Assembly (NCBI GenBank): GCA_017506865.1
Contig: JAFCMP010000543.1
Coordinates: 372,001 to 436,000, forward strand
Source of the DNA: Tribonema minus
Taxonomy: Eukaryota; Sar; Xanthophyceae; Tribonematales; Tribonemataceae
DNA: 64,000 bases
Reading direction: 5' to 3'
Position 1 is the first letter of the stretch; the number at the start of each line of letters is the position of its first letter. The position numbers and the translations under genes were made by a program. This document shows positions 3,025-60,240 of the stretch, piece after piece. Under the pieces are notes generated by a model that ran no database searches, had not been told where the DNA came from, and saw only the letters and a list, made by a program, of their open reading frames with translations.

Positions 3025-3989
3025 ATGGAAGGTGATCCTCATGACGAGGACATCGCAAATGCGCCTGGCTCCGTCATCAGCGATAATCACGCAGGTGACA
3101 TGAATGATGGAGCAGCTGAGGACACGGGTCGCGAAAGTGCAGAAGCAGATGCCCAAAGCAGTAGCGGGATCGACAACGAAGACGGAGCTGCAGGCTCAGG
3201 AGCTGCTGCGGGCACGCAAGTGGCTACTGATGGTGAGTGCCGTGGCTCAGCAGGCCGGCTCTAATCGCCGAAGTCGACAACGCCCTGTGAGCTTCGTTGC
3301 GAGTGCTGCTTGCGAAATCCCGGGCCAACATGTCGATCCTGCCAAGTGAAATAACCATTAAGGTTCCGATCTTATAAATAAACGAATAAGCAAGAACAGC
3401 GATAATATATGCGTGAAGTACCATGCTGAGAGGTGTATGTGACCATGAAGTACTGTGCTTAGCACTGTATGTGACCATGTGCTGACTTGAGTCATCCTGT
3501 GTTCGTGACATTTGCGAGCACAATGGATACTCTGCCATCTCCGCTGCTTGCGGAGAATAAGGACATGGCCTTCGATCACGACGTGGTGATGCGTTTTCAC
3601 AATGACTCGATGGGTAGAAAACTTTGATCGATCCTCGGCAGCATGCGCCAGCAGTAGGCACCCAAGTGGCGTTCCCACTCGCCCGGTCCGCACGGTGCTG
3701 CAGACACAGCCATGAACTCTCAAATCGCGCTTTGGTTAGGGTTAAGTTAGGGTAAAACTACAAGTCAGGGTTAGCATTAAGGTTAGAGTCTCTCAGCACC
3801 ACCTCCAATCTCACACGCAAAAAAACTGCATCGCCAGAGGGCGACGCCCCTGCAGCAGCAGCGAGCAGCGATGCCGCGCCGCGCGACGCCGACGACGCCA
3901 ACGCCGTAAACTCCATCAGAAGCGGGTCTGATCATGGCGACGAGGAGCGCGATGAAGGAGCGGAGGGCAGCGGCGGCGGCAGCGGTGGC

Positions 3990-4082
<93 letters not shown>

Positions 4083-7000
4083 AGAACGGCGGCGTTTCCG
4101 CAGGAGTCCATGGGGGAGGAGGGGGACGAGGAGGGGGGGTATGGTGATGGCGACGATGGCGAGGAGGGGATGGAGGAGGACGTGTACGCGCCCGTGTGCC
4201 AGAGCCTGCTCGACAGGCTGAATGAGGTGAGGGCCTAGCCCCTGGTCTTGAGGTAGGGCTCGATTCGGGGGTACCCGCAGGACCACGCACCATGTGCTGC
4301 GCATTGCGCAATGCCGACATTTGTTGATTTCCAAGTAGCTCGACGCTCTCCGCTCAGCCCCGATGCAGGCACGCTCCTTCTCGCATTGACGCAACACCGC
4401 GTGTCTTATCTGAACCGATGCGACGCCGGTGCAGCACGCTGATTGCGCGCTCGTACGTTCACCTCCTCGCGGCGACTGTGATGCGACTGGGTGCTGTGTC
4501 GTGTGGCCTGCACCGACATGGTGTGTGCCTGCGCGCGTTGCACGACTGTAGGCAACACTGCTGACCCTTGTTACCTCTAGCGAATTCAGTCGGGCTGCTG
4601 CAACTCTAAGACACCTCTGCCCGCCATGAACCTGGGGGCGCAACGGGCTTGCAAGGCGACATGTTGCTTGCGCCCTGACCGCTCTTCATTCTCACCGTCC
4701 CCCCATCAGCACCTCTGAACTTCAATGCCTGTACTGCGGTCTGAACTTCGAACGCCACTTTTTGTCACAATCGCACATCTGCTAGTTTCGTCATTTGCTA
4801 TCATCAATATCGTTACTAGACTACTTCGTCCTTTTCCTGGAGTCTTGTTCTTGAGGTGCTGCAATGGGCCCCTTAGGGTTAGGGTTAGGGTTTAGAATTA
4901 GCTTTAGGGTTAGGATTAGGGTTAGGGTTAGTTCTGAAGCACCTCAAAACGTTGGAAGCGTGTATACCCTCTTCCCAAACAGTGTACCTATGAATGCATA
5001 CGTACTGCACCTGACGCCAGGTATGCTTTCTTCTCAATGTATACAACTGCATATGTACTGCAACTGTTACGTGCCCCCGCAGGCGCGCCAGATGGAGGGG
5101 CTCGCGCCGCTGGAGTACGACGACGCGCTGGCAGAGGCAGCCGCGGCACACTGCAGGTATGAATTCTGCAATGCTGCACATACCTACCTACCTACAGGAG
5201 GTATGCATGTATTCTGCACCGCTGGAGTACGACGACGCGCTGGTGGAGGCGGCTGCGGCACACTGCAGGTATGCATGCGTGTTGCGCATTGCACGTACCT
5301 ACGTACCTACAGGCGGTATGCACGCATTCTGCGCTACCGGAGTACGACGACACGCTGGCGGAGGCGGCCGCGGCGCACTGCAGGTAGGCATGTATTCTGC
5401 ACCTTGCGTGTACCTACGTACCTACAGGCGCTGGCGTACGACGACGCGCTGGCGGAGGCAGCCGCGGCACACTGCAGGTAGGCATGTATACTGCCCCTTG
5501 CATGTACGAACGTGCTTACAGACGAGGTATCCATGCATTCTGCGCTGCGGTTCAGCGAGCCACGCCAGCCGCGACGGGCATACTATCAGTACGTGCGGAC
5601 GCTGCCATTTGCCGCCCCCAAGTGCTACAAACCTGCGCGCCATCCACAAGCGCGCGTTGTGTCGCTGACCGTGACCGCACGCGCCGCGGGGACATGGTGG
5701 ACGGCGGCTTGGTGAGCCGCGTCGGCCGCGACAGGCGCACGGGCATTGCCTTTTGCACCTCCCATTTCAAACTGTTTAGTAGACGCATGCGCGCCTCCCA
5801 CAAGCGCACGTTCACATCGGGCCGCAGGGACATGGTGGACGGCGGTTTCGTGAGCCACGTCGGCCGCGACGGGCGGAAGCCCTACCAGCGCTACTGCGAC
5901 AGCGCCGCCGGCTGCCACGTGGCGGAGGTGCTCACCGGCGGCGAGGCGCGCGCGGAGTCGGCGCCGGAGGTGCGTCATCACCACTCGAAGTTTTTAACTT
6001 AGGTCAAGGTGTGTGATGAAACAGTGGTATTGGGCTTTTGTGGCATGTAGCTGCCATAGTCTCTTCAACGTCATGCGTACGTGCACATATTCTAATGCGG
6101 GGCGCATCTGGTTCAACATTTTTTTACAAATTCATCATTGACTGCAGCAACCGATAGCCTCACCGCCTAGATTCCGCTCTGAACTGTAATTGTTCCCCTC
6201 TAGCTCTTGTGTCCTGACGTGCAATTATAACTTGTCACCCCCCCCCCCCCCCTCCCCTCTTCCGTCGCCTCTGCCCCAGGCCATCCAAGTGCTCGTTGGC
6301 GCACTCGCTGAGAGCCTTGAAGAGCAGCCGGGGGGGTACGACCGGCAGCAGCTGCTGCACCGGTGAGTTGAAGTTGCTGTGCCGCATGCTGCGCTGAACT
6401 TCATCTGAACTGTGATGAACTTCTCCTGAACTGTGAGCCAGCCGCTCACGCCGGTGAATGAACGTTTGAGGAGGTAACCACTTACTTTGGACGTATACGG
6501 TACGTACACGGCGTGGGCGAGAGAGTTGCGGTGCCGCACGGCGCATCGGCCCTCTCCTGAACTTTGCGTCACACGCTCGCGCTGATGACATGAGACTGTG
6601 ATAAGGTGTTTAAACGAGTCTTGTTCTTGCCATCTGACGGCGGTGCTGCGTCAGTGATGCCGTACATGGAGCGAACGTGGCAAGGAATTAGGGTTAAAGT
6701 TAGGATTAGGGCTGACCCTAATCTAACCCTTGACCTTCACCCAAAGGTGCGCTGCGCCCTCATTGCCTCCAACCCTAACCCTACTGTGGGCTCAGGCTTA
6801 TGAGCACCACGCAGTGACGTCACAACACATGAGAAACCCCTCAAAATGTGCAGATACGATGGTGGAGCGTCTCACATGAACTTGTGGCGCCGCGTCGCCT
6901 CCCCCTGCCACCGCGCCGCGGCAGCGAGCACGCGCACGTCGGCATCGGCGTCGCCGTGGATACTATTGTGGAGCGTCTCACATGAAGTTGTGGCGCTGAG

Positions 7001-10000: not shown

Positions 10001-13000
10001 TGAGATGATGGGGACATGTCCGGAGTTCACATGCTCGCTGCCGCAGGCGCCGTGTGTGACGCTCAACTGGTACTTCCGGAGCGCCGTCCTCGTCCGGATG
10101 CTGTTGGAATCCTGCAATGCCTCGAGCACCTGTCGCTGGCTGCACGGTACGCGCCTGCTGCTGAAGCTTCGCCCTCATCATAACCCTCAACTGTCATTCT
10201 GACCCTAACACTAATCCTGAGCCCCCCCCCCCTCCCATTTGCGCCCCCGCTTCAGCTGTTCATCCCGCCGGAGCGCACAGAGGGCATGACAGCGCTCAAC
10301 CTGACGGTCCAGTATGCGCGTGTCTCGTCGGAGCGGCTCGCTGCTGTCGACACGGAGGTGAGCAGGCATTACTCTGTTCATGAATGCCTGCCCGCAAATC
10401 ATGAATATGAATTGTGGGGAGGGCACATCAGCGACTTACTCACTCGTTCACTTTCTCAGTTGCTCCTTTGTTCATCTCTGTTCGTCGCCTCACTCTCACG
10501 CACTCGCCACCACCAACCCCCAACCATAACCCTACCTCTAACCCTACTCCTAACCCTAACCCCCCCAACTTCGAACCCGCAGGGACCGCCCAAAAATCAC
10601 TACTAGTAGAACATCCCAGCCCTACCCCTTTCTCCAACCCTACTCTCAACCCCAACCCCAACTTCGACCCGCAGGAACCGCCCGCACAAATACTAGTAGA
10701 ATGTCCCAACGTTAAAACCCCTACCTCTGATCCAACTCCGAACCCTACCCCCCCCAACTCCGAACCTGCAGGGATCGCCCGAACCACTACTAGCAGAACG
10801 TCCCAACCCTAACCCTACCTCCAACTCTGACGCTTACCCCAATCCTAACTCTCAATTCTGACCCGCAGGGACCGCCCGAAGTTGTGACGGGGGCGACGTT
10901 CCTGCACGTACCCCCCCTCACTGAGCCATGCCCACCCCCCGGCTACACCATCATCGGCCCCGACCTGGCCTCCGCAGACGACGATGACACCGCCGCCGAT
11001 GCCGCTGCTGAACATGCGGAAACGGCAGAGAGCCCCCCCGCATCCCCCCTCCCAGCTGAGCGTTGTGACACGCTCGAGGCCGAGAGAGGAGGGGGGGGCG
11101 AGACTGCAGCGGAGGGCGCGGGGGCAAAGGAGGGGGGGGATGGGGGGGCGGAGGAGGAGGGGGAGGGGGGGGACACGGGGGGCAGCGGGGAGGGTGCCGA
11201 GGGGGAGAGCAGTGAGGGCGGGGGCGACGCGGCGGGGGAGGGGGGCGGTGATACGAGCGCTGCTGCCGATGATGGTGATGGCGGTGATGGTGCTGCTGCT
11301 GCGGAGCCGGCGAAGGCGCGCGGCGAGCGCGTGTTCCTGTGCGTGCGGCTGGAGCTGCTGGGCGAGGGCGTGGTGCCGCTCACGGACCTCGCGGTGAGCG
11401 CTGGCGCAGATGTGGCACCAGCCCTACTTGCGTGTGCTAGCCCTAGGTTGTGCCTTTTGTGCTGATGATCTTGATGCTATTATACCTGTCCCCGACAGGG
11501 TGGTGCCGCATGTCGCCCTAGGAGATTCAACGCGACCTGCGCGCTTAGAATGGCTACTTCAAGTGTTGCTGCATCTTCAAGTGGACGCTTAACTGCGGCA
11601 CGGCCCAAGGCATTGCATCTCTCAGAAATATGGCCCGCGGCGCAGCTACACCTCTTACTGTCACCTAGTTGTGAATGATCGTGGTGCGTGGAGAGATGCA
11701 TTCCTGACAGCCCTTGCCTAACCCTAACCCTAACCCTACCCTAAACCTAACCCTAAACCCTAACCCTAACCCTAGCCCTAAGATGTAGCGCCAGGTGAAG
11801 TTGCATGCGCGCACGGTACAAACGCCTGCAGCGGCGTCGCACATTCTGGACTGCATCAGGGTGCTACCAGCTAATAAGGCTGACACTGAGAGCGGGGTGT
11901 GACGTGGAGTAGTGGCCTGGGCACTTGAAGTCTGCACGTTGTGGCTCAGGCTTGCAGATGGTAGCGCACACTGGTTGCCCGTGTCTGCAGCGATGCTCAG
12001 CAGTCTGCTGAAGTGATGACATCAGGTCATCCGTAGTGCTGGGCCTGAACAAAGCATGCCCTTTCTCTGCTTGCGTGCGCAGCAGCAGCAGTGCTCTCGT
12101 TGTCCTCTACTCCTGATCGATGATGATTCACAGCAATTACTCTCCACATGCCTCCGCATGCTGCTGCCTTCTTGAACAGCGTGTGACTCTCCCCCCTTTG
12201 CTGCGATCGCGCAGATCGCGTACGGGAGCGAGCGCTTCGACATGCACATACCTGCTACTTCAACATGCACATTACATGCTAAAACTGCGCGTGTAACTCT
12301 CCTCGTCTGCTGCAAATCGCCCAGATCGTGTACGGCAGTGAGCGCTTCGACATGCGCATACATGCTACTTCAACATGCACATTACATGCTAAAACTGCAC
12401 GTGTGACTCTCCTCAACTTCTGCGATCGCGCAGATTGTGTACGGCAGTGAGCGCTTTGACATGCGCTACGGCTACGAAACGGAGGCCGCGCCGGCGGCGG
12501 TGGCGCGCCTGCTCGGCGCGCAGGTGCTGCTGTGCACCAAACGCGCCGACGCGTCGCGGCAGGTATGTACGCTTCGAGCGCAAAGGGTAGGTATACGCCT
12601 TCAATTCTGGGTGGCAAGGGGTAATGTAGGCTCAGCATATCATGTCAGGTGCGTGGGCACCTGCGCGCCGGCGCGTTGAGTGGACGCTTTGGAGTACAGA
12701 GGGATATGTATGTGAGCGCAGCAGCGCAACGCGCAGATGCTGCTGTGCACCAAGCGCGCCGACGCGTCGCGGCAGGTATGTATGTACGCTTCAAGTGCCG
12801 GGGGGGGGGGGGGGGGGGGTATTTCTCCGTTTCTGGGGGGCAAGGGTGTGTAAGCTCACTGCGCTTGCTTCTCCTTTCCTGGGTGGCAAGGGTACAGGGT
12901 GCAGGTATGAATTTTTTTTGTATAGGGTCACCGTATCGCGCGTGTTGTGCACAGGAGCAAAGCCTACGCGGTTGATTCAGGTAAGCTGTGGGGCACAGCA

Positions 13001-16000
13001 GGTAGGCTGGTGACAAGGAGGTATGCATGTCAGCGCGGCCGCGCGCCGCGCAGGCGCTGCTGTGCACTTAGCGCGCCGACGCCTCGCAGCCGAGGGACGC
13101 AGTGAGTGCAGTGGGGATATGTATGTACTTCAGAAGTACATGACAAGCACAGTTGTGTGCGGCCCTCTTGTGTCAATCAACGCACCAGACAGGCACGCCC
13201 GTACTGCTCTTGAACTGTGCTGGTGAATACGAGTTCACCGAAACCCCGCGCCTGTACTCCGGTGCACTGTGCTAGGTGGCAGAGGCCCTGTTGAAGCACG
13301 CGGCCATGCAACGTCATCTAGTGCACTGGAGCTTCACCACGCATGTACTACTTGCATTGCACTGTGCTGGGTGGGAGATACCCTGGTACATAAAGCGTGC
13401 AGCCCTCGCGTGTTCAACGTTCACTGAGAATTCGTGCCTGTACTGCGTTTAACCGTGCCAGGTGGCAGTGGCCCTGGTAAAGCACGCAATCCTCGCGTTT
13501 TTAACGAGTTCACCAAGCATTCACGTCTGTACTGCGTTGAACTGTGCCAGGTGGCAGAAGCCCTGGCGGAGCGCGCGGCCCTCGCCACGGCAGAGGAGGT
13601 CGAGCGAGAGCTCGATGCGGCTGCCGGTGGTGCGGGGGGTCGGTCCAGGCGATCCAGCAGCATAGGGCGGCGCAGGAGCAGAGGTATTTATGTGTTGCTC
13701 TGGTGCCGTTCAACACAATGCTTGAACTTCAAGCGTCCATATACATTCATCACGTAGTGTGCTGCGGCGATCCAGCAGCATAGGACGGCGCAGGAGCAGA
13801 GGTACTTTATGTGTTGCTCTGGCGCCTGTATAGACAAAGCTTCAAGTTCAAGTTTCTACATATGCTCATCAGTAAAGTGCTGGGACTTTCATGGAATCGG
13901 CGAGCGACACCGAGTCGGAGATCGGAGGAGGCAAACCGGCAACCTGGCACGTACCTGCTCATTTGGTTTTCAAGCCCACTTTCTTCGTGGCACTGATCCG
14001 CCCTGCCAGGATCGCATTTGCTATTTGCTGCTGAGCTGTAGCGGGTGCAACCACTTCAAGTTTAAAGTGCAACAGATGCAGCCCTTTCGTCTATGTCAAA
14101 AATTAGTTGTTATATTGCTGTCCTCCGGGCCACCCAAAGAGCATGTCAGTACAGCACCAGTACACTAAGAGTATACCGCGCACCGTAATGCTCACGCAGA
14201 GCTGCCTTATTCACCTCGGCTCAGCAGTTCCCTGACCCTCATCGCAACTGTAATTTTCATCCCAGCATTAAATACAGCGCCCCCTTCCCCGCCTGCCGCC
14301 GAGCCGTGCAACAGATCAAACGCGCCACAACGCTCAGTCCCAAGCGGACAACTACGCCGTGGACGCGGCCTTGCCGCGGCAGTTCCCTAACCCTAACCCC
14401 AACTCTCAACCCAACTCTAATACAGCGCCCGCTTCCGCCGCCTGCTGCTGAGCCGTGCCACAGATCAAACACGACACAACGCTCAGTCCCAAGTGGATGA
14501 CTACGCCGTGGACGCCACCATGACGCCCGATGAAGTTCGGGAATGGGAGGTGAGTCTTGTGTGGCGTGACGAGAAATTCAATGCGTCAAAATGATCTGTA
14601 GTAGAATCCTGAATGTCTTGTTCCCGTGTACATGCGTGAGGGTCTGGAATGCAACCCTTACGGGCTGTGTGCAACGCTCAGCGGCAGCAGCAGCAGCACT
14701 AGGACATGTGTGGCAGTGCTCCGAGTGTGTTGCAGCGCTCAACTTGATCGTTTACGGCCGCTGCCAGGCGCGATGCGCTGCATGGCACGCAGTCACACAG
14801 TGCTCCTGTTTCTGGTATAACGTTGCAGTGCTCAGCAAGCCTGTTGACGTTGGCTGCAGGCGCGGTGTGCGGTGCACGCGGCACAGCGACAGCGTACAAT
14901 GCGCCAGACGCAGTCTTGCGGGAGGCTGTGAGCAATGCTCCGCAGCAGCAGCAACAGCAGCAGCAGTACGGCAAGTGTGCTCTGAGCGTGTAGCAGTGCT
15001 CGACCTGCCTGTTCACGTTGGCCGCAGGCATAACACGCGGCCGAGGCGGCGCAAGCGACAGCGGCAGCGTGCGATATGCCAGACACGAACTTATACGGCT
15101 GTGTGCAGCGCTCAGCAGCAGCAGGACACGTGTGACAGTGCTCTGAGTGTGCTGCAGTGCTCAACTGAATAAGCAACGGCTGCTTTCAGGCGCAGTGCGC
15201 GGCAGAGGCGGCGCGCGCGGTGCATGTGACGGCGATATGTATGCTCACAAACTTCAATACTGTGTGCAGTGCTCAACAGCAGCAGCAGCAAACATGTGTG
15301 GCAGTCCTCCGAGTGTGCTGCAGTGTTCAACTTAATCATTGACTAATGCTTTCAGGCGCGGCGCGCGGCGGAGGCGGCGCGCGTGGCGCACGAGGCGGAG
15401 GAGGAGGACGCGCACGCGCGGCGGCGCGCGGCGGCGGCCGCCAGGGCAGCACGTCTCAACGATGCCGCCGCCGCACGCGACAAACTGCTGACGGAGAATC
15501 AGGTGAGAGTTAGGGCTAGAGTGGGGAGCGCGGTAAGGGTTGTGAGGACAACAAGTTGCTGGTGGAGCGTCAGGTGACGGTTGGGGCTAGGGTAGGGTTT
15601 CACAACAAGGGTTAGAGGGGCAGCAAGGCTCAGCGAGGCCGCTGCTGCACGTGACACGTTGCCTGCAGAGAATCAGGCAAGGGTCTCAGGGTCAAGTTCG
15701 CTTCTGAACTTGGGGTTAAAGACTTGAAAGTATAGTGCTGGGTACAGTGTTGAAGTTTTCTGCTGTACCATTGTGTGAGTGGTGACACGTGGGGCGTTAA
15801 ATCTAAGTGCCATGCAACAAGAGGGATGTCTCCGGTGGGCGATGCTATCACAGATCAAAGAGCATTGCGATACGCTACTGACTTGCGAATGCGACCCCGC
15901 CACTAGGCAAGCACCCGGTCACATGGCATGAGGCAAAGACGGCTCTCAGCGCCAATCTCCCGGTAAACGCGCAGAGCGTCTGGCAAGTGACTAGAGATGA

Positions 16001-19000
16001 AATACACACATACCCGCACGTGCGACTAACGCCGTCTCCATATACTTGACAGTACGTAAACCGCCCTGCCGGTGCCGCGCACGCGCCAACCTCTCGGTAC
16101 ACGCGCAGAGCGTCTGGCATATGACTGCTTGAAAAACACTCACACCGGCACGTGCGTCTGACACTTTTGCCACATACTTGACAGTTACGTAACCGCCCTG
16201 CCAATGCCGCACTTTTGCGCTTCCGCAGGAGTGGCAGAAGAAGGTGGCAGCGCTCATGGTGCTGCAGGCCAAGCGCCGCGAAGAGGCCCGCGCCGAACAG
16301 CAACACGGGGGTCACAGGGGAGGGGGTGCCCCCGGCTCCCCCCCCCTGCCCCCCCCGCCCGCAGCGGGGGATCCCTCCGCGCCCCCCCACGAAACCGAAA
16401 AGCGCTACTCGGAGGCGCTCTCGGGGATCATGGCGTCGCGCGAGGCGCTGCGCAAGCAGCAGGCGGAGTAAGTGACTCTCCTGCGGAAGACTTGAACTTT
16501 GCCAGTGTGTGTACTTCAAAGCATGTTGATGGTGCGGAAGGAGGCTACCTGGGAAGGAAAGGGGTCGACCGTTGCAATCAGCGATACCGCTCTTTCCGCA
16601 CGGAATCATCCTTGCGTTCCGTATGTCATGTGGCTTACCGCTAGGGCCAGGGCACGGTGGGCAACTTCAACCGCAGATGATCGCTCACGCGCCCCCCACT
16701 TCGTCGTCCTGTGACCCTGCTGCGACAGGTACGATGACGTGGCAGTTGGCCTGCAGACGCGGCTCAACGAAAAGGAGTACAAGGCGCGGGAGATCGCCGA
16801 CTTCTTCAGGGACTTCAAGCGGGAGGTGAGGGTGCGCGTTGCCGCGGACGGTGACGAGCGTGTGCAACAAAGTGGGTCGCATCGATCAAGGTCGCCGGTG
16901 CACTGAATTGTTGGCGCGCGTCGCATCTAACCCTTTCCCTAGCCCTAACCCTTGCGCTGACCCTAATCCTAACCTCACCCTGGTCCTAACTGTAACCCGC
17001 CTGCAGAGGGCCTATGACGCGGATGCAGCGTCACACGGCATGTATAGCAGTTCAAACTTCAAGCTCAAATGTATGTGCAAAATTTGCTTGCGAAGCAGTG
17101 ATGTAATATGCTCTCAGGTCCAGCAGCTAGGCAAATGCAGTAGCGCCACCTGCTTACCAGGCGCATGCCACGGCTTTTGCGCACGCCACAGAGGACGCGC
17201 GCACACGATCTCCGCAGGCGTGCGGCTGTCACTTCACTGTCCACAGCAAACGCAGGCGGGGCACTTCATCCGCAAACACGCGTTCCAATGCTTCTTCTCA
17301 CCAACTTACGTCGGCACTGCTTGACCATCAACTGTCCACCTTATGTGACGCTGACAGCGTGCAGCAATCTGCTGCTGCGCTGCACTGCGGCAAGTGCATT
17401 GCTGGAGCGCTTCTCGTTTGAAAAACACGCTGATGCTGACTGGTGTCGGCAGCACCGCCACAGCTTCTCCATGATCGGCACCGCCATAATATCAACGAAT
17501 CGATCGCGCGCTGCTCACCGCGCAGCAATGCTCAACACGGCCGCACGCCAGTAATGCGCCCCTCATCGCAGAGCGCTGCGGCGGGCACCGTAATGGCAAT
17601 AGACGCAATTGATCCATGCTGACCGCCGTGAATCATGGGTATCCTTGCGCGCGTGCGCAGATCGCGCGGACCGCGGAGAAAACCATGGGTATGTGTGTGG
17701 GCATGTATAATGTAGGTATAATTCAATAACGGGGTATGTATGTACTGTACGTATCATTGCGTGCACGTGCAGATCGCGCGGACCGCGGAGAACAGCCGCA
17801 CGTCGCGCCCCATACCCAAGCGCGTCATCGCTCAGTTCGAGGCGGCAGAGGCAGCCAAGGACGAAGAGGTGGAAAAGGTGCGTACGTCATGGTAAACCAG
17901 TGCCACCAGCGCTGTTGCAAAGAATTAGAACAGATGAAGTCTGCTACGCTATGATGAGCTCAATAACAATTTATATATACTTCAAAGTATACCCACATAC
18001 CCAAGCGCGTCATCGCTCAGTCCGAGGCGGCAGAGGCGGCCAAGGACGAGGAGGTGGTAAAAGTGCGTACCTCAGCTGTTGTGTCGAACTAGAACAGAGT
18101 ATGCCTGCCACGCTATGATGAGCTCAATAACAGCTGATTTATATACTTACATACCCAAGCGCGTCATCGCTCAGTTCGAGGCCGCCGCGGCGGCAAAGGA
18201 CGAGGAGGTGGAAAAGGTGCGTACCTCATTACCAGTGGCGCCAGTGCTGTTGCGGCGAACTAGAGCAGATGAGGCCTGCTACGCCATGATGCGCTCAATA
18301 CCGACTCGCGTATATACCCACATACCCGAGCGCGTCATTGCTCAGTACGAGGCGGCGAAGGCGGCTAAGGGCAAAGAAGTGGAAAAGGTCACCGCATCGC
18401 TTGAAGCACTTCGTCGCACAAGTCGCGTGGGAGCACTGCAGAGCAACCAGCCGCATGAAACAGACGAACAAGTTTTCCACGTGATCCGCAGTGTACCCTT
18501 GCCCCAATTGTAACGCTGACCACTGCCCCAACCTCAACTCTAGCCACAGCCGTAAACGCTAAGGCAGCAGCAGCAGGCATACCCTATTTACATGCAAAAC
18601 TGCGTCCTGGATTGTGATGTTTTTTACCTGTGTTGCGCCGCATGTCCGCTGTGCTCAAGTCTGCTGCTGCTGGCTCTACACAGCTTGACGGAGAATGACA
18701 AGGTGCACACGGCACTAAAAAGAGTTTCATCCAGGACTGATTCATTCACTTCAGAGGCAACAATGAGTGCACGTTGTCGCACACCTACTTTTTGTGTGAA
18801 GAACAAACTCCGAGGCAATGAATTCTGACGTTGACAGCCCCCTGAGCCTCTGCTTACTTCAACAACTCTGCGTCGACGCCGCGCGCGTGACTACGCACAT
18901 CAAGAAAGACAGCACCCGTCTCCTAACTAAACTTCAACAATTCAATCCCCACAGGTGCGCCTGCGCAACAAAACCTGTGCATGGTGCTGCGCAAGCTGAA

Positions 19001-22000
19001 CTTTGTCTTCAACAACTCAATGTCCCAACTTCAACAATGAAATTCCCCAGGTGCGCCTGCGCAACATCAACTTGCGCATGGTGCTGCGCAAGCTGGAGGC
19101 GCGGCTGCGCGCCAAAGAGCAGCTGGCGGAGGGCCTGCACCTGATAGACTTTGAGCAGCTCAAGATTGAGAATCAGACTCTCAATGAGAAGGCGAGTCCC
19201 AGCACTGTAAAGTGATGCAAGTGATGCTTACATGCAGTGCTGACTCTTTGGAAGTTTCAAGTGTACTGCATGTGATGGGCTTCAAAGTGTACTGCATGTG
19301 ATACACCTGAAGCAGCCCAAGATCGAGAATCAGACTCTCAATGAGAAGGCGAGTCCTGGCACTGCGATGTGATGCTCAATGCAGTGCTGCTGCTGCCAAG
19401 GTGCACTGCATGTGAGCGGCTTTGAGCAGCTCAAGATTGAGAGCCAGACTCTCGATGAGAAGAGGAGTCCCAGCACTGCGCTGCTGCTGATATACAGTGC
19501 CGGCATTCTTAAGATGCTCTGCATGCAATTGATGTCATCGCTGATATGCACATCCGCAGCCTGCGCCTACCATTCTGAGCAAACAAAAATAGATATACTC
19601 GCCTGACATGTTTGGTCATGTTTGATGCATGCTATGCACCTTGACAGATCGAGGAGCGCAATGAGGACCTGCACAAGCTGCGCAAGAAAAATACCACCAC
19701 CGTGCAGGTGATGCCCGTGCTTGTGAACACACCCGAGGCGCTTCGCGAAGCAGTTACAGACGTGTTTTTTAGACACTGATTAATGACCCCAAGGGAGACA
19801 GGGTGTTCTATGCAATCGCGTAGTTTACTCCTACAGCAGCGATGTACACTTACTTGGAAAGTGCATGCTCCATGTGTCAACTTATGCGCGCATGAGGGAA
19901 CAGCGCTGCGAAGCTCGCACATCTGCTGCACCAGCACCACACAGGCACGGCAAATGGAATGAAACGGTTTTATAAACGTACAGTACCCCCGCGCTGACAC
20001 GCCTCCGTGGTAGTCAGTGACGTCATTCCTGCGCACAGCTGTACTATTGTGCGAGTAGCTTCATGCTCGAAGTACACGAGTGTGTACACTTAAAGGTTAT
20101 GAAGCGTCGTGCATGATGCAACTCATCTCATGGTTTTTCACGCGCCGTCCGTGCATGTGCACTCTGCAACGCTAGCTAATGACAAGCCGTTCATTCTCGC
20201 CCCCCCCCCCCCCCCTTAATGGCACCACGCACATATAGCCGGCCATACACTTGCGTGTCAGCCGCCTGCTGTCCCCATGCCGCGAGCCCCCACAGTTCCA
20301 TCCGACGCACGCACTCCCGCCACAACGCTGAGCCGCGCTGTCCCCGACGCCACCCGTGCGGCGCGTGCTGCAGGCGTTGACGCGCACCAAGGAGAAGCAA
20401 CACATCGGCAACAGTCACTCTGTAACCTCCCACAAAACTCACATCGACGTCTGCCCCAGCAAGCGCTGACACTGACATCTCGGCCCCTCCGCGGCGCATG
20501 CAGGTGCTCACGCACGTCAAGGAGAAGCAACACATCGGCAACAGTCACTCTGTAACCTCCCACAAAACTCACATCGACGTCTGCCCCAGCAAGCGCTGAC
20601 ACTGACATCTCGGCCCCTCCGCGGCGCATGCAGGTGCTCACGCACGTCAAGGACCAGCAACGCATCGGCAACAGTCATTCTGTAACCTCCCACAAAACTC
20701 ACCTCGACTTCCGTTCCAGCAAGTCATCAAACCGCCACCTCTCGACCCCTCCGCGGCGCGCCCGCTGCAGGTGCTGACGCACGTCAAGGAGAAGCAACGC
20801 GTTGCCAACAGTCATTCTGTGGCCTATTACAAACCCCACCACCACGTCTGCGCAAGCCCTTACATGGACATCTCGAATGCTGACAACTCGCGCAGGTGCT
20901 CACGCACGTCAAAGAGAAGCTGCAGTTTGTCGCGGCGGAGAACGGCGGCACGCGCGGCCGCCTTGGCGAGCTGGAGGCGCGCGTCGCCGCGGGGCGCGAC
21001 GCCCTCGCACGCGCCAAGGGCGAGCGCGAGGCGCTGCGCGCGCAGGCCGGCGCGCTGCGCCAGAATCAGGGACTGGCGAGCAAGTGAGTCGCATGCTGTA
21101 GTTTCATGCAAAAAACCATGGAGTGTGCTTCTATCAACCCACGCTACCACGCTGGTGAAGTCAGTACTAGGTTCGATGTAGAGTTGAAATTGGAGTTGAT
21201 GTCAGCGCCAAGGGCGAGCGCGAGGCGCTGCGCGCGCAGGCCGGCGCGCTGCGCCAGAACCAGGGACTGGCCAGCAAGTGAGTTGCATACTGTACTTCCC
21301 TGCAGGGACATTGAACGTGCTACCAGCCGGCGCTACCACGCTGTTGAAGTCGGTAACCTACCACGCTGTTCAAGTCAGTACCCAGGGTTGATGTAAAGTA
21401 GAGGGCAGGAGGGGTCGCCAGAACCAGGGCCTGGCGAGCAAGTCAGTGGTGTGGCAGTCGGCGGCGCATGCACCAGTGGTGAAGTTGAAGTTGAAGTTGT
21501 CATCAGCGCAAGGGCGAGCGCGAGGCGCAGGCCGGCGCGCTGCGCCAGAACTAGGGCTTGGCAAGCAAGTGAGTGATGCTGTGTGCTGTTCATTTTAAGG
21601 GTTATTTGGGTACTCGCCGCCGATGGCAGTGTACGAGCTGCGTCATCTGCACCATCAGGACGGCCTGTCAGGAGTTGCAGCACAAGCAGTTCACGGCTCG
21701 CTTAATTATTCGAGCTTGATGAGGTTTGAAGGGCCTCAAGCGGCGCCGTCAGCAGACACTGCAGCGCCCGATGAAATGCCTTGCCCGCCGTGCAGGTACC
21801 GCTGACAGCTGCCGATGCAGCGGCACCTTGGCAGGCTTTCAAATTTTTCCTGCCTGCAGGTCTGCATGCACGTTTCCTCAAATGAGGCTGCTCAATTACA
21901 AAAACGCTGCTTCGATCAACCGCTTGATGCTGCACGTGCCGCCGCCGCGCCGTGCCCCGCAGCGAGCTCCTGGTCCTGGACTTTGAGGGGCGGCGGCAGG

Positions 22001-22149
22001 AGCTGAAGCGCATGCAGCGGCGGCTCAGCGAGCTGCACGACAGGCACGCAACGCTCAGCAAGGAGCAGGCGCGCCTGCGGCAGGCAGCGGCGCGCGGCGG
22101 CGGCGGCGGCGGCGGCCACGACGATGGCGCACTCTACACCGGTGCCTAG
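3025..22149 (+). CDS. CAP-domain / MABP-like / CFAP184 (CCDC96) coiled-coil fusion gene
   Basis: Proposed exons: 3025-3232, 3838-4226, 5083-5156, 5828-5969, 6280-6362, 7324-7735, 8351-8634, 8907-8958, 9342-9530, 10256-10357, 10869-11393, 12434-12562, 13551-13683, 14464-14549, 15356-15502, 16229-16467, 16729-16825, 17773-17877, 19051-19191, 19648-19707, 20896-21083, 21963-22149. They splice in phase throughout to 1,323 residues. The order is: acidic N-terminus; polyglycine; CAP domain; a Gly/Ala-rich beta region; an MABP-like stretch; then the coiled coil that defines CFAP184. The ATG at 3025 is the first in frame. Weak points are exon 8 and the 9531-10255 interval: an exon at 10047-10146 (starting APCVTLNWYF) is possible but does not fit the phase. 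Exon 19 uses a GC donor. An alternative is two adjacent genes, but no stop, or start codon in a good context, separates them, and exon 12 to 13 joins cleanly at phase 0. Confidence 0.6.
3988..4082 (+). repeat. GGC microsatellite coding for polyglycine
   Basis: About 30 uninterrupted GGC units inside exon 2 of the CAP-CFAP184 gene, following shorter GGC/AGC and GGT/GGC interruptions. In the coding frame it is polyglycine; the antisense reading gives alanine or arginine runs. Length is probably unstable, both biologically and in assembly. Confidence 0.9.
5210..5478 (+). repeat. three degenerate copies of the exon 3 donor junction
   Basis: Exon 3 ends at 5156 with CGGCACACTGCAG/gta. Copies of its last ~50 nt with the donor recur at about 5220-5268, 5337-5383 and 5429-5477, each followed by gtatgcatg or gtaggcatgta and each preceded by a cctacctac-type spacer. 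Any of the four donors could be used; the third copy is also preceded by a usable acceptor (cctacag), which would make a 49-nt cassette. Confidence 0.85.
5636..5850 (+). repeat. duplicated acceptor junction of exon 4
   Basis: The start of exon 4 (GGACATGGTGGACGGCGGTT at 5828) has an upstream copy at about 5690-5735 (GGACATGGTGGACGGCGGCT) that continues into GTCGGCCGCGACAGGCGC. The flanking sequence (CACAAGCGCGCGTT versus CACAAGCGCACGTT) is duplicated as well, so the repeat includes intron. In the upstream copy the equivalent of the exonic TTCGTGAGCC reads TTGGTGAGCC. Confidence 0.8.
6688..6786 (+). repeat. interstitial TTAGGG/CCCTAA-type tract, both orientations
   Basis: Imperfect telomere-like motifs in the intron after exon 5. 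GGGTTAAAGTTAGGATTAGGG is followed by CTAATCTAACCC and later CCAACCCTAACCCTAC, so the two halves can base-pair. Confidence 0.7.
6857..7370 (+). repeat. four-unit tandem array over the acceptor of exon 6
   Basis: Units contain 'tggagcgtctcacat', then a pyrimidine/GCC-rich stretch, CGCCGCGGCAG and GAGCACACGCACGTCGGCAT. They occur at about 6860-6960, 6969-7080, 7151-7250 and 7255-7370. Only the last unit continues into a long open exon (exon 6, from 7324). In earlier units the frame is lost within about 40 nt. Confidence 0.88.
7430..7580 (+). repeat. Ala and Gly triplet runs within exon 6
   Basis: GCC runs (polyalanine) are followed by GGC/AGC and GAC/GGC runs (Gly-Ser and Gly-Asp linkers) between the CAP domain and the next folded segment. 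No stop interrupts them. Confidence 0.8.
9080..9131. repeat. palindromic telomere-like hairpin
   Basis: GGTTAGGGTTAG is directly followed by CCTAACCCTAACCCTAACCC. The outer flanks GGTGCA and TGCACC are also complementary, giving a near-perfect inverted repeat of about 45 nt in the intron between exons 8 and 9. Confidence 0.85.
9480..9890 (+). repeat. copies of the exon 9 donor junction
   Basis: Exon 9 ends at 9530 with GAGCCCGGCCTTGAGCAGAAG then gtgact. Copies of its final 40-55 nt end at 9660 (gtgaag) and 9779 (gtgact). A fourth, at about 9830-9880, keeps GTCGT-CGCCGCCGCGGCGCG but has lost the donor. Intron sequence after each donor (ctctccgctg, gttgaagttgaag) is repeated too. Confidence 0.88.
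10520..10890 (+). repeat. acceptor array of exon 11 with embedded CCCTAA tracts
   Basis: Four units end in (g)aacccgcagGGACCGCCC-type acceptors at about 10582, 10672, 10769 and 10868. Three continue with an ACTAGTAGAA/ACTAGCAGAA motif and CGTCCCAACCCTAACCC, and only the last opens into exon 11. Spacing is 90-99 bp. Each pyrimidine tract is built from CCCTAA/CCCCAA telomere-like repeats. Confidence 0.88.
11716..11776 (+). repeat. interstitial CCCTAA tract
   Basis: Nearly continuous CCCTAA repeats in the intron between exons 11 and 12 of the CAP-CFAP184 gene, C-rich on the sense strand. Confidence 0.9.
12205..12480 (+). repeat. acceptor array of exon 12
   Basis: Three units carry (gcgcag or gcccag) ATCGTGTACGGCAGTGAGCG followed by CTTCGACATGCGC. 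Acceptors are near 12215, 12326 and 12433. Between them lie repeated intron blocks (ctacttcaacatgcacattacatgctaaaactgc). Only the third continues as coding. Confidence 0.9.
12520..13095 (+). repeat. donor copies of exon 12
   Basis: The end of exon 12 (CTGCTGTGCACCAAACGCGCC then GACGCGTCGCGGCAG/gtatgta at 12562) is repeated at about 12737-12776 with an intact donor. It is repeated again at 13045-13092, where a TAG has arisen and the donor is lost. A G run of about 18 follows the second copy's donor. Confidence 0.88.
13265..13565 (+). repeat. acceptor array of exon 13
   Basis: Four units with GTGC(C/T)AGGTGGCAGA(A/G)GCCCTG have acceptor-equivalent positions at about 13275, 13367, 13460 and 13550, 90-93 bp apart. 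Each is preceded by 'tgtactgcgtt(g/t)aac' type sequence. In the first two the AG is altered (ctagg, ctggg), so only the last two keep a usable cag. Confidence 0.88.
13640..13815 (+). repeat. donor copy of exon 13
   Basis: GGCGATCCAGCAGCATAGG-CGGCGCAGGAGCAGAG with the donor occurs at 13648-13683 and again at 13766-13801. Each is followed by gtatttatgtgttgctctgg or gtactttatgtgttgctctg. Confidence 0.9.
14300..14520 (+). repeat. acceptor copy of exon 14
   Basis: GAGCCGTGC(A/C)ACAG then ATCAAACxCGxCACAACGC occurs at about 14309-14370 and 14450-14515. The first copy is followed by a CCCTAACCCCAACTCTCAAC tract leading to the second, functional acceptor. Confidence 0.85.
14755..15400 (+). repeat. 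five-copy acceptor array of exon 15
   Basis: (t/c)(t/g)cagGCGCGGCGCGCGGC-like acceptor units occur near 14767, 14860, 15026, 15190 and 15355. Between them are repeated blocks with 'tgtgtgcagcgctcagcagcagca', 'gacatgtgtggcagtgctccgagtgtg' and 'gcagtgctcaac'. The last three intervals are about 165 bp. Identity to exon 15 rises towards the functional copy: the penultimate unit matches about 28 nt of exon. Confidence 0.9.
15480..15685 (+). repeat. donor copies of exon 15 with G-rich TTAGGG-like intron starts
   Basis: GACAAACTGCTGACGGAGAATCAG/gtgaga at 15502 is echoed by ACAACAAGTTGCTGGTGGAGCG-CAG/gtgacg (about 15575) and GACACGTTGCCTGCAGAGAATCAG/gcaagg (about 15677). The intron starts contain GGTTAGGG-type words. 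Confidence 0.8.
15905..16228 (+). repeat. tandem intronic repeat before exon 16
   Basis: A unit of about 135 bp is present about twice, with a partial third. It contains 'ccaa(t)ctc(t)cggta(a/c)acgcgcagagcgtctggca' and 'ttgacagt(t)acgtaa(a)ccgccctgcc'. The last unit runs into the acceptor at 16228. Confidence 0.8.
16928..17006 (+). repeat. degenerate CCCTAA tract ending in a decoy acceptor
   Basis: Mixed CCCTAA/CCCTGA/TCCTAA words directly precede cctgcag at about 17006 within the intron between exons 17 and 18. No in-phase exon follows. Confidence 0.75.
17650..18392 (+). repeat. acceptor and donor copies around exon 18
   Basis: An acceptor copy (cgcagATCGCGCGGACCGCGGAGA) lies at 17658-17682, 112 bp before the functional one. 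The last ~65 nt of exon 18 (from CCCAAGCGCGTCATCGCTCAG through GAGGTGGAAAAG/gtgcgta) recurs at about 17999-18064, 18152-18217 and 18324-18389. The three donor copies are 150-172 bp apart, each followed by the same intron block with 'tatgatgagctcaataac'. The second copy is nearly identical to the exon and keeps gtgcgta. Confidence 0.92.
18945..19480 (+). repeat. acceptor and GC-donor copies around exon 19
   Basis: An acceptor copy (ccacagGTGCGCCTGCGCAACA) sits at about 18950, 97 bp before the real one at 19050. The donor end (AATCAGACTCTCAATGAGAAG/gcgagtcc at 19191) recurs at about 19319-19353 with the same GC donor, and again at about 19430-19472, where the sequence is agaggagtcc. Confidence 0.9.
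20355..20935 (+). repeat. five-copy acceptor array of exon 21
   Basis: gcaggt(g)ctcacgcacgtcaaggagaagcaa-type units start near 20369, 20502, 20630, 20769 and 20895. The first four are followed by 'cacatcggcaacagtcactctgtaacctcccacaaaactcac' intron and a new pyrimidine-rich acceptor stretch. The two middle units are almost identical over 128 bp. Only the fifth reads on as AAGCTGCAGTTTGTCGCG, the conserved CFAP184 block. Confidence 0.93.
21000..21575 (+). repeat. donor copies of exon 21
   Basis: The end of exon 21 (GGCGCGCTGCGCCAGAATCAG then GGACTGGCGAGCAA/gtgagt at 21083) recurs at about 21208-21280, 21417-21443 and 21507-21570. The last copy carries an in-frame TAG (AACTAGGGC). Confidence 0.92.
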
Positions 22150-29640: not shown

Positions 29641-29652
29641 TTGCTACTGCAT

Positions 29653-29690
29653 CGTAACCCTAACCCTAACCCTAACCCTAGCCCTAACTA
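29653..29690 (+). repeat. interstitial CCCTAA tract
   Basis: Four to five CCCTAA units downstream of the minus-strand methyltransferase gene. Confidence 0.9.
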
Positions 29691-43744: not shown

Positions 43745-43862
43745 GAAAACGAATCAAAAGATCATAGAGCTCTAGGTGACAAGGAGTGGTTAGCCGCAAG
43801 TGCCCTCCACCAATAACCGTGATCGCCATTGCTGCAGTCATTGGCCACGAGTCAAACGGTGC
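43745..43862 (-). repeat. dispersed element, copy C (inverted)
   Basis: Reverse complement of copy A at 22951-23075 with about 90% visual identity, including GGCACTTGCGGCTAACCACTC and TTGTCACCTAGAGCTC. The translated frame (TVIGGGHLRLTTPCHLELYD) stays open through the copy. Confidence 0.85.
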
Positions 43863-57400: not shown

Positions 57401-60240
57401 GAGTCACCTCCTGCACTGTGAAGTACGGTCGGTGACCTCAAGTTCTGTGAGGGGGCGCGCTGCTCCGCTCTTGCGTCCACCTGTGCACATGCCGGGTATG
57501 TAGTTGCGCAGGGCGGTGACTTCAACATCATGCGGTGACGCACCTGCCGACGCTCGCCGCGGAGGACGGGAGGGAGAACGGCGCAGACAGGCAGCGCGCC
57601 TTCCACGTCTCGTCGCTGCGCCGATACGGACCAGCAGGCGACAGCAACAGACAGCAAGTATCAGTACGAGCATTTGCCGTCAGAGGCTTGGTGGTCATGT
57701 AACACTCTGCGCACAAGCAAATGTTTGCTTGCCAGCAAGCGACGAGTGCCGTGCCTGCCTGCCTGCCTGTCTGTCCCTGTCAGCTAAGTAGAGTGCGCGA
57801 GCAGGCCAGATTCTGACGCGCTGTCGCAGCGCGCTGTTGAGGTCAACTCCAGCGCTGTTGAAGTTAACAGACTGTCCACACAAAGCCCCCTCCCCATCAC
57901 AATGGTCTGCCATAAGCAGGTACCGAGTTGACATAGCAATGTCACCCACACAAGACCGGTGATCTTGCCGTTGTTGGTACGCCGCCACCATACACGGCTG
58001 CCAGGACTGCTGCCGCCTGTACCTGGCTGCGTCGCCACCAAACTCACATCTGCACAAAATGAACTTTGTCATCGTCCTGCATCGCCTCATCGAACTGCGC
58101 GTGTCCATCGCCGCAAACCGCCGCCGCACACAGTTTACGTGCGCGTTCCAGGCAATGGCGGTCGCGCCTGAAGCAATGCACGCGTGGCCTGCTTGCACTT
58201 TGCAACCACGTCCTCTGCTCGCTGAGGCCACAGCTCGCATCTGACGTGTACCAACACGCCGCACAGTGACTTTGATACTGACGGCACTGACGGCACGCAG
58301 CACACTGAGCGTCACCCCCTGACTGCCTGTGTGGAAGTAGCAAGTGGCTGCAACTGGCAGCGCGCCGCCGCATTACAAGCGCCCTTCCCCCCCTCCCCCC
58401 TCTCTCCCCCCCCCCCCAACGTAACAGGCGCGACGCGTGTGTTGAAGCTGCACTTCGCACACGTCTGCATGGTTTAGTTTTCAGACAGCATGCCATACTT
58501 GCATACCTGCATGTGACGCTCTGGTGGAAGTGACGGCTCAGCGGCATGTGCAGCAGCTGCTGCGCCTGCAGGGCGATAGAGATGAAACACATGAGGTTGG
58601 TGAGTGAAACGCGCGTGTGTGCATACGCGGGCCCCGGATGCACAGCAGGAAAATAGTGGTATACACCAGCAGACCTATTTACTGCATTGGCTTTAAACCA
58701 TGCTGATGATGCGAGTCTGTTCTGGCCACTGTGGCTGTACCACATGAGATGAAGAGCACTGGGTTTCAATTCGCAACGATTCACGCAGCGTGCGTGTGCG
58801 ACGCAACGGCCACAACGCGTTTGACTCGCGGCAAGTGCCTAGTATTCACGGATGCCTTTGACTACGTGTGGCGACGTTCGCATAAAAGTTTATGATAAAG
58901 CACCTGCTTGTAGCGCACGCGATGCTCGTTACATTACGCGGTAATGCCAGCCGAGCGCGTTGCAAGTCACGTGTACCAGAGCAGGCAACAAAGCATATAC
59001 AGCGCTGAACAAATGCTTTCGGACCGCCAGCGAATTGTCGCCCAGCCCTGGCCCAGATATTGGCCTAACATGGCCGCTCTTGATGCAAATATATACGCAG
59101 TAACCTGCCGCAGAACGGCGGGGACTTCAATCTCAGCAAGCCTGCCTGCCTGCCTTGAACAGTCATGTTCATGCATTCAAGCCCGCATCGTCCTCACCTC
59201 GGCAGGCGAAAAGAAGCGCAGGAAATGTGAGAGCACGTCATCCAGGTACAGGATGCAGTCATCAACCCTGCCGCCTTGCATCTGCGGTGCACGCCTCGGC
59301 ATTTTGCGTGTTGACGCGCCTGCCTGGTCGGTAGCTGAGTGAAGAGGTTACACCTGTCGCAGCAGGTCGCAACGACCTAAATACCCAGACCGCAGCCGTG
59401 CCGCAGCATCATCTATCAAATCGCCACTCACTCTTGATCGTGCCAACACTTGGTCGTGCAACACTTGGTCACATCACGAAGCAATTTCTTCACAGGTCAA
59501 GATTCGCCACTTGAACTAACAACTTGCCTACGAAAAGAGTTGAGGCCGCCAGCTGCCCGCGTGCGCTTTCTCGACGTTACTCGATGAGGAAGATTGCAAT
59601 GGAGGAGCTGCAGGAGCTGCAGCTTTCATGCGGCTGTCATTTGCGTGGCATCACTGGTTGCTACTACGCGCGCGTTTGATCTGATGATCTGAGTTGAAGC
59701 CGCACACATACGCCTAGACAAACAGGCCGCACTGTTCACTGTGGCTTCTGCTGCCGTCGCGGCCACGGCTGAAGGCTCCTGCTGCTCCTGCGACCGCTGG
59801 TATAACGCCGCCACAGGTGCCGATTGTTGCTGTATGCCACAGGTGTGGAGAGGAGAGGTCTCCGCCGCCTTCACACTGGGTGCTTTGTACGTGCGTGCTG
59901 GGCGTCTTACTGCCACACTCTTTTCGTTCTGGCTCACAGCTGCGCTACGCAACCTTGTGGCAGCTGTAAGGATTTAATGTTGGAGTGGCACACATGCCGA
60001 GCAGCGCTCCAACTTGAAAGAAGCGGCAGCGCTCCGAAGAAAGGCAGCCGCACCAGCGGCGGCAGCGGCGGCGCTGCGGCCGGCGAGGCCGAAGTACCAC
60101 AGCAGTATTGCCATCAGCCACTTGCCTCTTGTGTAGCATCGTGAGGGACTCACCCAAACACGCAGCAGCCGCAGCCGCGCCAGCAGGGCTGCCGCGTGCT
60201 TGTGGCCTCTCTTCGCAATGCTGTCGTGAATGGCGTTCAT
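48422..60240 (-). CDS. armadillo-repeat protein
   Basis: Minus-strand exons: 60240-60154, 59267-59198, 58565-58507, 58094-58048, 57615-57544, 57175-57129, 56897-56813, 56320-56213, 55425-55351, 54437-54349, 53604-53490, 52881-52831, 52410-52254, 51410-51335, 50929-50870, 50422-50368, 49522-49467 and 48485-48422. From 56320 onward they are continuous in phase (301 residues plus stop). Repeats are evident: VARTTGIDALTGVMCVLDQH; RAVVRAMRRRSADPDIQ then AMACWAMVNLGLVRAQ; AAVLAAMRAHARSADVQ then HRALFALVNLSVRA; AVLLAVQAMAAFPK then ASRACLLLHNLAMDP; MVAAGVLPSLAAAKAAHPSD. This is the three-helix armadillo pattern with 'H/R-x-D-x-x-VQ ... A-x-ALxNL'. The end is LLDTIALQHNHQPLLQQEAL. The proposed start is MNAIHDSIAKRGHKHAAALL. 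Between the first and second exons, and near 56897, the phases do not fit, so small exons are missing there. These proteins are scaffolds; no partner can be inferred. Confidence 0.75.
49340..49372 (+). repeat. interstitial CCCTAA tract
   Basis: Five CCCTAA units, TTAGGG in the sense of the armadillo gene, about 95 bp after its penultimate exon's donor (49467). Confidence 0.9.
49460..49690 (-). repeat. acceptor copy of the penultimate armadillo exon
   Basis: The plus-strand block GCGGCCTGAGCAAGCAGCAGCG then CTCAAC-ACATG...GACAGCGGCGC surrounds the acceptor at 49522. It is repeated about 114 bp further upstream in transcription (AAGGCCTGTGCAAGCAGCAGCG from 49623). Confidence 0.8.
50423..50452 (-). 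repeat. CA/TG dinucleotide run serving as pyrimidine tract
   Basis: (CA)12-13 on the plus strand reads (TG)n ending in tgcag directly before the exon at 50422-50368 in the armadillo gene. Confidence 0.85.
51111..51213 (-). CDS. possible alternative terminal exon of the armadillo gene
   Basis: From acag (51214) in minus sense, entering in phase 2 as required after the 51410-51335 exon, the frame reads SQQYLPPQVLQAEVVHAQAG then PLKTLLEHLAPRN and stops at TGA. It looks coding, yet skipping it and splicing to 50929 continues the armadillo pattern just as well in the same phase. It may be an alternative end producing a shorter protein, or an old remnant. Confidence 0.35.
51860..52260 (-). repeat. 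donor array of the armadillo exon 52410-52254
   Basis: In minus sense the exon end (GTGCGCGCGCGGGACGCCGG then CGGTGACGCTCCCGCTCC...CCGG/gtacgtacg) recurs ending at about 52051, 51974 and 51855. Each copy is followed by gtacgtac. The first copy is almost perfect; the others carry GGC expansions or losses. A copy of the dispersed element (52113-52207) sits between the functional donor and the first copy. Confidence 0.92.
52113..52207 (+). repeat. dispersed element, copy B
   Basis: Shares CCACGGTTATTGG, GGCACTTGCGGCAAACCACTC and TTGTCACCTAGAGCTCTACG with copies A and C. It is shorter at its 5' side and abuts the end of a duplicated exon fragment. Confidence 0.85.
53040..53604 (-). repeat. donor copies of the armadillo exon 53604-53490
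   Basis: The exon end in minus sense (GCCGTCGTCCGCGCCATGCG, CAGACGCTCGGCAGACCCTG then ACATACAG/gtgcgc) recurs at about 53250-53310 (donor changed to gcacga) and 53044-53100 (ATGTAG/cacg). The exon is followed by gtgcgcgctca, so only the first donor remains canonical. Confidence 0.9.
54010..54400 (-). repeat. donor copy of the armadillo exon 54437-54349
   Basis: GAGGGCTCCATCGCGCGCG-C then GGCACCGCTGCGGAGAG/gt recurs at about 54096-54150. The ~100 bp beyond each donor are repeated too, including a (CTTCAACTTCAAC-TCAA) block, giving a unit near 250 bp. Confidence 0.88.
55003..55083 (+). repeat. degenerate CCCTAA/CCCTGA tract
   Basis: About twelve units in an intron of the armadillo gene, TTAGGG in its sense. 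A C run of about 17 follows near 55120-55136. Confidence 0.85.
55669..55695 (-). repeat. interstitial TTAGGG tract
   Basis: Four TTAGGG units on the plus strand, CCCTAA in the sense of the armadillo gene, about 245 bp before the exon at 55425. Confidence 0.9.
56632..56700 (+). repeat. degenerate CCCTAA tract
   Basis: About ten CCCTAA-like units between the exons 56813 and 56320 of the minus-strand armadillo gene. Confidence 0.85.

Follow-up and report, generated by a model that had tools for sequence, protein, structure and literature searches.

Diverged exon-edge copies inside introns of Tribonema minus point to an old burst of local tandem duplication

Why should the introns of several genes contain further copies of the edge of the adjoining exon, together with its splice site? 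This question is raised by a stretch of 64,000 nucleotides of the yellow-green alga Tribonema minus (assembly GCA_017506865.1, contig JAFCMP010000543.1, positions 372,001 to 436,000 of the forward strand), referred to here as the window and numbered from its first letter. The explanation that we favour, with a probability of about 0.74, is that short tandem duplications arose locally in an old burst, most often in introns, and that the events crossing a splice site survived because the outer site, the one attached to the exon, continued to be used.

Self-alignment of the window yielded 71 pairs in direct orientation, of which 63 lie no more than 1.6 kb apart, and two inverted pairs, neither of them local. 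Exon edges were examined by comparing the 60 nt at the end or start of an exon with its own intron, a copy being a match with a score of at least 18 (or at least 25 under a stricter threshold). Copies were found in this way at 12 scored junctions, 11 on the plus strand and one on the minus strand (Table 1), and the exon-edge similarity inside introns exceeds chance both in the window and in the kinesin genes described below. Thus, the extra exon edges with splice sites that a preliminary description had reported are real and occur on both strands, and its count of at least 15 junctions in five genes is plausible. For a CCDC96/113-like gene (CCDC113/CCDC96 Pfam family), a model based on a profile of 47 relatives shows copies at 7 of 14 junctions, with up to three per junction by score; at a threshold of 22, six junctions remain, the seventh scoring 20 against a reverse control of 15. 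The Aurora kinase gene carries them at two of eight junctions, both donor-side. Three more donor edges, which were selected from the repeats and are therefore not a random sample, have three copies (exon end 5156), two copies (12562) and two copies (33151 on the minus strand, in a DOT1-like exon). A Pfam scan of 20 reading frames of the window gave two matches above the cut-off, and an Rfam scan of the window gave nothing at gathering scores.

In the Aurora kinase gene, spliced alignment with the full public T. minus protein P0001 reproduces 323 of 323 residues from five exons (a manual join of the exons gives 100% identity across 286 residues), which establishes the splice sites of this gene, and the public protein uses outer splice sites only. 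An intron-only tandem duplication that stops at the acceptor of Aurora exon 2 contains no Aurora exon-edge copy detectable in the exon-edge test. The phenomenon had been called window-wide up to position 60240, which is too strong, since no local direct BLAST pair falls in the blocks at 24-32 kb and 56-64 kb and the last such pair in the window ends by 54391; apart from a two-copy repeat of 48 bp at 25249, the repeat finder reports nothing in these two blocks but arrays that are short or telomere-like. Unlike the gene-rich part of the window, the region 56000-64000 has neither a coding-like segment nor a local direct BLAST pair.

The phenomenon extends beyond the window, as indicated by kinesin loci elsewhere in the genome, which were chosen independently of repeats. 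Kinesin genes were located with a Pfam profile (132 matches) and modelled with a spliced aligner and a profile made from the genome's own long exons, giving 29 distinct loci from 20 kinesin regions and 9 of 30 listed loci. Most of the unused loci lie within genes already covered, and L011, L014 and L015 were also left out, while the low-scoring models L051 and L029 were retained. From 114 modelled introns, five with a GC-only low-complexity donor were dropped before counting, leaving 109 introns (median length 724 nt) and 218 junctions. Copies scoring at least 18, 114 in total, are present at 58 of the 218 junctions, compared with 2 of 218 for the reverse complement, and in 47 of 109 introns and 18 of 29 loci. 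At this threshold, 27 donors and 31 acceptors have a copy, against two and none for the reverse complement and two and five for the best of five other introns; at a score of at least 25, the numbers are 24 of 109 donors and 22 of 109 acceptors, and the reverse-complement, other-intron and shuffled controls are all zero. Moreover, the 20 kinesin regions (145,818 bases) contain 147 local direct self-alignments and no local inverted one.

The anatomy of the arrays indicates how they arose. Donor copies lie downstream of their exon and acceptor copies upstream, as the preliminary description held, and this sidedness is strict in the kinesin genes, where exon 3' ends find a copy in the upstream intron in 1 of 48 cases and exon 5' ends in the downstream intron in 0 of 48. 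Junctions that bear any copy have between one and six. The spacing has a wider range than the 90-165 bp first given: it is 84-250 nt for 102 of 114 copies, with medians of 151 nt (donor) and 157.5 nt (acceptor) and a maximum of 627 nt. Among spacers of 30-260 nt between copies scoring at least 20, 49 of 85 pairs from the same array exceed the 99th percentile of unrelated spacers and are taken as homologous, compared with 2 of 85 for the reverse complement, and such homology is present in 22 of 25 arrays; thus, whole head-to-tail units were duplicated, and sidedness and homologous spacers together support tandem duplication across exon edges. The best-scoring copy adjoins the exon in 20 of 27 multi-copy arrays, with 9.9 expected by chance, which is what outward growth predicts and broadly bears out the proposed decay away from the exon, with exceptions such as intron 2 of L054. 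Introns with copies are also longer (median 915 nt, n=47) than those without (565.5 nt, n=62), and copy number correlates with intron length (rho 0.46, p 5e-7); the suggestion that introns grow outward from the exon is upheld by these observations.

In all 11 introns with both kinds of copies, every donor copy lies upstream of every acceptor copy. This geometry would be compatible with recursive or nested splicing, and it could be explained if the copies were kept for splicing, either because inner pairs are removed first, from the inside out, or because they serve as regulated alternative sites. The state of the copies offers this idea some support, as GT is retained in 28 of 44 copies (30 if retained GC is included) and AG in 46 of 57, while 58 of the 108 copies scoring at least 20 are free of frameshift, stop and lost site, and certain exon parts are 95-98% conserved next to unalignable flanks. 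However, nesting is expected from tandem duplication alone, and the splice dinucleotides are conserved no better than the adjacent exon bases. The remaining 50 of the 108 copies have at least one defect (frameshift in 35, stop in 4, lost splice dinucleotide in 25). Moreover, the spacing is blind to frame, with flat counts modulo three (11/7/9 and 12/9/10), and use of the nearest copy would leave the frame open at 6 of 58 junctions, so that the alternative splice sites proposed earlier find no backing here and retention for splicing is very unlikely. A related idea, which we consider just as improbable, is that duplication is tied to introns or splicing and that the nested inner pairs are used, overlong introns being removed from the inside out and each duplication supplying a tolerable pair of sites in a self-sustaining manner. 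In intron 6 of L053, at about 8511-8536 of the locus, the innermost donor and acceptor copies are 25 nt apart and form a core that resembles a mini-intron.

The copies instead show the marks of near-neutral decay. Mismatches to the exon amount to 0.12-0.18 at codon positions 1 and 2 and to 0.24 at position 3, a pattern that fits near-neutral decay of the copy combined with synonymous change in the exon. Among 178 nearest-partner pairs, divergence is below 5% in 6, 5-10% in 33, 10-15% in 63, 15-20% in 53 and higher in 23. Under a constant rate, no class would be expected to outnumber the youngest; with 6 of 178 pairs below 5%, the wave of duplication seems to be old and to have ebbed, and continuing activity at a constant rate was rejected on this distribution. 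Near-identical copies may, nevertheless, be collapsed in the assembly, and the scarcity of such copies could partly reflect this; it is the one point in favour of an assembly artefact, a possibility raised together with the first report of the arrays. Against it, 169 of the 178 pairs differ by 5-25%, which makes assembly error unlikely, the copies have private insertions and deletions, and the window contains no N; therefore, an artefact is extremely improbable as an explanation of the arrays.

Exon edges are probably not a special target of duplication, contrary to what had been suggested, since ordinary intron sequence is copied about as often. Whatever the distance bin, intron windows have local copies at a frequency of 0.12-0.26 (0.12-0.34 for introns longer than 900 nt, higher near the ends), compared with 0.28 in exon windows at the edge, which drops to about 0.1 further inside, where the reverse-complement background climbs too, to 0.056 deep in exons. 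The share of bases that lie in local repeats is 0.227 for introns, 0.128 for exons and 0.07 for the remaining sequence, which still includes other introns. The duplication process is thus commonest in introns, with the outside DNA serving as an imperfect intergenic sample, and distance to coding-like sequence gave no clean split of introns from intergenic DNA when low-complexity windows were omitted. A dispersed element near 41.4-42.7 kb was omitted from the distance-to-coding, repeat-coverage and divergence analyses.

Repeated sequences in introns could also have been brought in by mobile DNA. Introners and introner-like elements are repeated sequences tied to introns at genomic scale, and insertion of a transposable or introner-like element beside exons, with target-site duplication, might leave exon-edge copies; a dispersed element of 125 bp does lie inside one array gap. 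However, three arrays (5216..5477, 20369..20895 and 39525..39809), each searched against the genome (158 Mb, 554 contigs), have no match elsewhere. After 61 exon-copy and 31 telomere-like matches were set aside, 4 of the 58 array regions still had a match in another gene among 32 compared sequences, which represent part of the genome, and these four consist of one dispersed element, two telomere-like sequences and one kinesin coding sequence. Unlike introners, each Tribonema array is local and no sequence family common to the introns was found, on which grounds introners were rejected, and an inserted element is highly improbable.

Dispersed and telomere-like sequences are also present in the window in their own right. 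The element of about 125 bp, which looks like a short interspersed element, occurs three times in the window and at loci L033, L040, L045, L058 and L060, its copies being 86-93% alike to that of L058. A 643-bp sequence made of two 330-bp units is found in full length at no fewer than 47 genomic places with 99-100% identity, plus two partial ones, among 40 scored of 368 candidates; it is sometimes in tandem about 1.1 kb apart and has no Pfam or Rfam match. Telomere-like CCCTAA/TTAGGG runs are present in the window and in kinesin introns, with 138 hexamers in 86 kb of introns versus 1 in 26 kb of exons, and the intronic CCCTAA tracts have no real strand bias (76 vs 62).

Under the explanation by local tandem duplication, head-to-tail duplications of about 80-250 nt would have accumulated in introns, mostly during one episode that is now old. 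Duplication across a donor would place an extra exon edge downstream, and duplication across an acceptor would place one upstream, in both cases within the intron. These events would be harmless as long as the outer site is spliced, so that purifying selection would let them pass, while duplications that change the protein would be removed. Each event would add one unit of intron length, and the newest copy would tend to adjoin the exon while older copies decay. General use of the outer sites is suggested by one public gene model, that of Aurora; the decoy copies would be neutral, and the duplications may have been produced by, for example, the repair of staggered breaks.

Several observations weigh against this explanation. 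The intron excess of local repeats (0.227 vs 0.07) is unexpected from a simple genome-wide mutation bias, and 11 of the 29 kinesin loci have no copies. In other families, three loci (C51, C5 and C135) among 56 chaperonin matches show two or three successive matches to one and the same stretch of the profile, the pattern that exon-edge copies would give at the level of protein profiles; myosin gave no serial match among 96 in this profile test, which detects only long and well-kept copies. The depth to which copies reach into the exon fits uniform breakpoints at donors (n 26, p 0.26), whereas at acceptors it is shallower than a plain uniform model allows (n 29, p 0.005). Acceptor depth becomes compatible with uniform breakpoints if 50 nt of the preceding intron are retained (p 0.115), as the branch point and the pyrimidine tract would presumably require, but the test is rough, since the best copy supplies the depth and the nearest one the unit length. 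Finally, among copies whose exon part is conserved at 95% or more, 5 of 15 lack an alignable intron flank (introns 4 and 6 of L053, intron 2 of L054, intron 3 of L055 and intron 1 of L017), as do 7 of 20 of those at 90-95%, while 99-100% of flanks should align in simulations with 5-10% divergence per copy.

The chance-level flanks of these five best-conserved copies are what would be expected if only the exon edge were copied, or if gene conversion from the exon renewed the edges, with the remainder of the unit unrelated; in intron 4 of L053, moreover, the copy most like the exon has a flank unlike the functional one. Nevertheless, the homologous spacers of 22 of 25 arrays led to the rejection of edge-only copying as a general mechanism, and copies are less alike among themselves (mean gap-free identity of the 30-nt edge 0.80 and 0.84) than to the exon (0.87 and 0.87), as independent decay predicts, which leaves edge copying or refreshing unlikely. 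An initial gap-free comparison of exon parts and flanks was poorly calibrated, with unrelated flanks scoring 0.68, and is superseded by the alignment of spacers and flanks. The unalignable flanks may reflect gene conversion over a short stretch, selection acting on the copy, or a rearrangement that affected the flank at a later time.

Local tandem duplication across exon boundaries has precedents in which introns were created or moved. A single tandem duplication across an intron-exon boundary created a new intron in the potato RdRp gene, and an 83-bp intron-only duplication is mentioned too (PMC4974935). The Tribonema arrays resemble this upstream intron-exon duplication, which carried the acceptor, the branch site and part of the exon, but they recur in many genes as decayed remnants within introns instead of being a single intron-creating event. 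They also share with the case of Hellsten et al. 2011, as cited in PMC4974935, an in-gene tandem duplication that leaves the protein unchanged since the extra sequence is spliced out. They differ from the AGGT duplication outlined there in that the introns lengthen and likeness between junctions is absent beyond one to three introns. In this comparison, which pairs the donor junction of each intron with its acceptor junction, the top scores are 25.5, 21 and 19, against 21.6 and 19.4 for the reverse complement, and the rest are background; consequently, no support was found for new introns from duplicated AG/GT junctions, a further suggestion of the preliminary description. In Drosophila, sliding or tandem duplication is discussed as the source of novel intron positions (PMC2891723), and a regional tandem duplication that takes in both exon sequence and splice motifs is a common feature, although intron positions shift there while in Tribonema they are fixed and the introns grow. 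Tandem alternative splice sites likewise present several candidate sites in a row, unlike which the Tribonema spacing is mostly 84-250 nt and frame-blind, and minisatellites, a length-variable class, are head-to-tail repeats of one unit too, but with many near-identical copies instead of one to six diverged ones per junction. No description of recurrent exon-edge copies left inside introns was found among the results listed for searches of the open-access literature, most subscription journals being outside its coverage.

Table 1. Genes, exon-edge arrays and other repeats of the window. Scores are those of the exon-edge test; "reverse" and "upstream" are its control scores.
Feature	Position	Strand	Remarks
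Coding exon 3' end (...YDDALAEAAAAHCR), CTGCAG/GTATGA junction	5096..5156	+	limits estimated from frame and consensus splice sites
Donor-side array, three copies of exon end 5156	5216-5268, 5331-5383, 5429-5477	+	scores 43, 39, 45; upstream and reverse 11.1
Putative coding-like exon ending ADASRQ, then GTATGT	12422..12562	+	sequence only
Donor-side array, two copies of exon end 12562	12716-12775, 13033-13090	+	scores 44, 38; reverse 18.1, upstream 13
CCDC96/113-like gene, 8 exons	15362..22092	+	profile model; outer ends of first and last exon provisional
CCDC96/113-like exons 1-4	15362-15502, 16229-16467, 16729-16825, 17773-17877	+	
CCDC96/113-like exons 5-8	19051-19191, 19648-19707, 20896-21083, 21963-22092	+	
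Donor-side copy, CCDC96/113-like exon 1 end	15618..15676	+	score 31; reverse 9.8
Weak acceptor-side copy, CCDC96/113-like exon 4 start	17661..17680	+	score 20; reverse 15
Donor-side array, CCDC96/113-like exon 4 end, three copies	18003-18063, 18157-18216, 18329-18387	+	scores 51.5, 48, 41; reverse 12.8
Acceptor-side copy, CCDC96/113-like exon 5 start	18955..18998	+	score 35.5; reverse 12.9
Donor-side array, CCDC96/113-like exon 5 end, two copies	19292-19348, 19406-19462	+	scores 41, 41; reverse 13.5
Acceptor-side array before CCDC96/113-like exon 7, unit ..GCAG/GTGCTCACGCACGTCAAGGAGAAG.. every ~130 nt	20369..20895	+	three copies score 19-23 on exon part; reverse 11.4; fourth by eye
Donor-side array, CCDC96/113-like exon 7 end, three copies	21218-21277, 21404-21441, 21506-21568	+	scores 56, 23.5, 36.1; reverse 18.5
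DOT1-like methyltransferase exon, donor AAGCAG/GTAAGG at minus-strand 3' end	33151..33354	-	Pfam DOT1, E 2.5e-5
Donor-side array, DOT1-like exon end, two copies	32988-33025, 32798-32857	-	scores 28.5, 38; reverse 9.5
Aurora kinase gene, five exons	35939..40287 (35939-36049, 36958-37116, 38125-38346, 39217-39409, 40004-40287)	+	equals P0001
Intron-only tandem duplication, period 147, stops at acceptor AG of Aurora exon 2	36663..36957	+	
Donor-side copies, Aurora exon 3 end	38478-38541, 38646-38688	+	score 33.9, reverse 10.3 (first); self-alignment (second)
Donor-side array, Aurora exon 4 end including GT, two copies	39525-39607, 39743-39809	+	best score 52; reverse 10.4
Dispersed 643-bp sequence	41820-42462		
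Dispersed element of ~125 bp	22955-23074, 43743-43857, 52118-52218	-, +, -	
Telomere-like runs, examples	11717-11781, 49340-49374, 55003-55084		

The arrays provide direct sequence evidence that introns can lengthen by single exon-edge units without a shared transposon. With near-duplicate splice sites at roughly one in four of the junctions examined (58 of 218), and with frame and site intact in about half of the copies (58 of 108), the introns of T. minus are a natural experiment on how the spliceosome chooses its sites. The abundance of exon-like decoys in these introns also calls for caution when genes are annotated or intron gain is tested. Moreover, the rarity of young copies raises the question of what turned duplication on and off in this organism.

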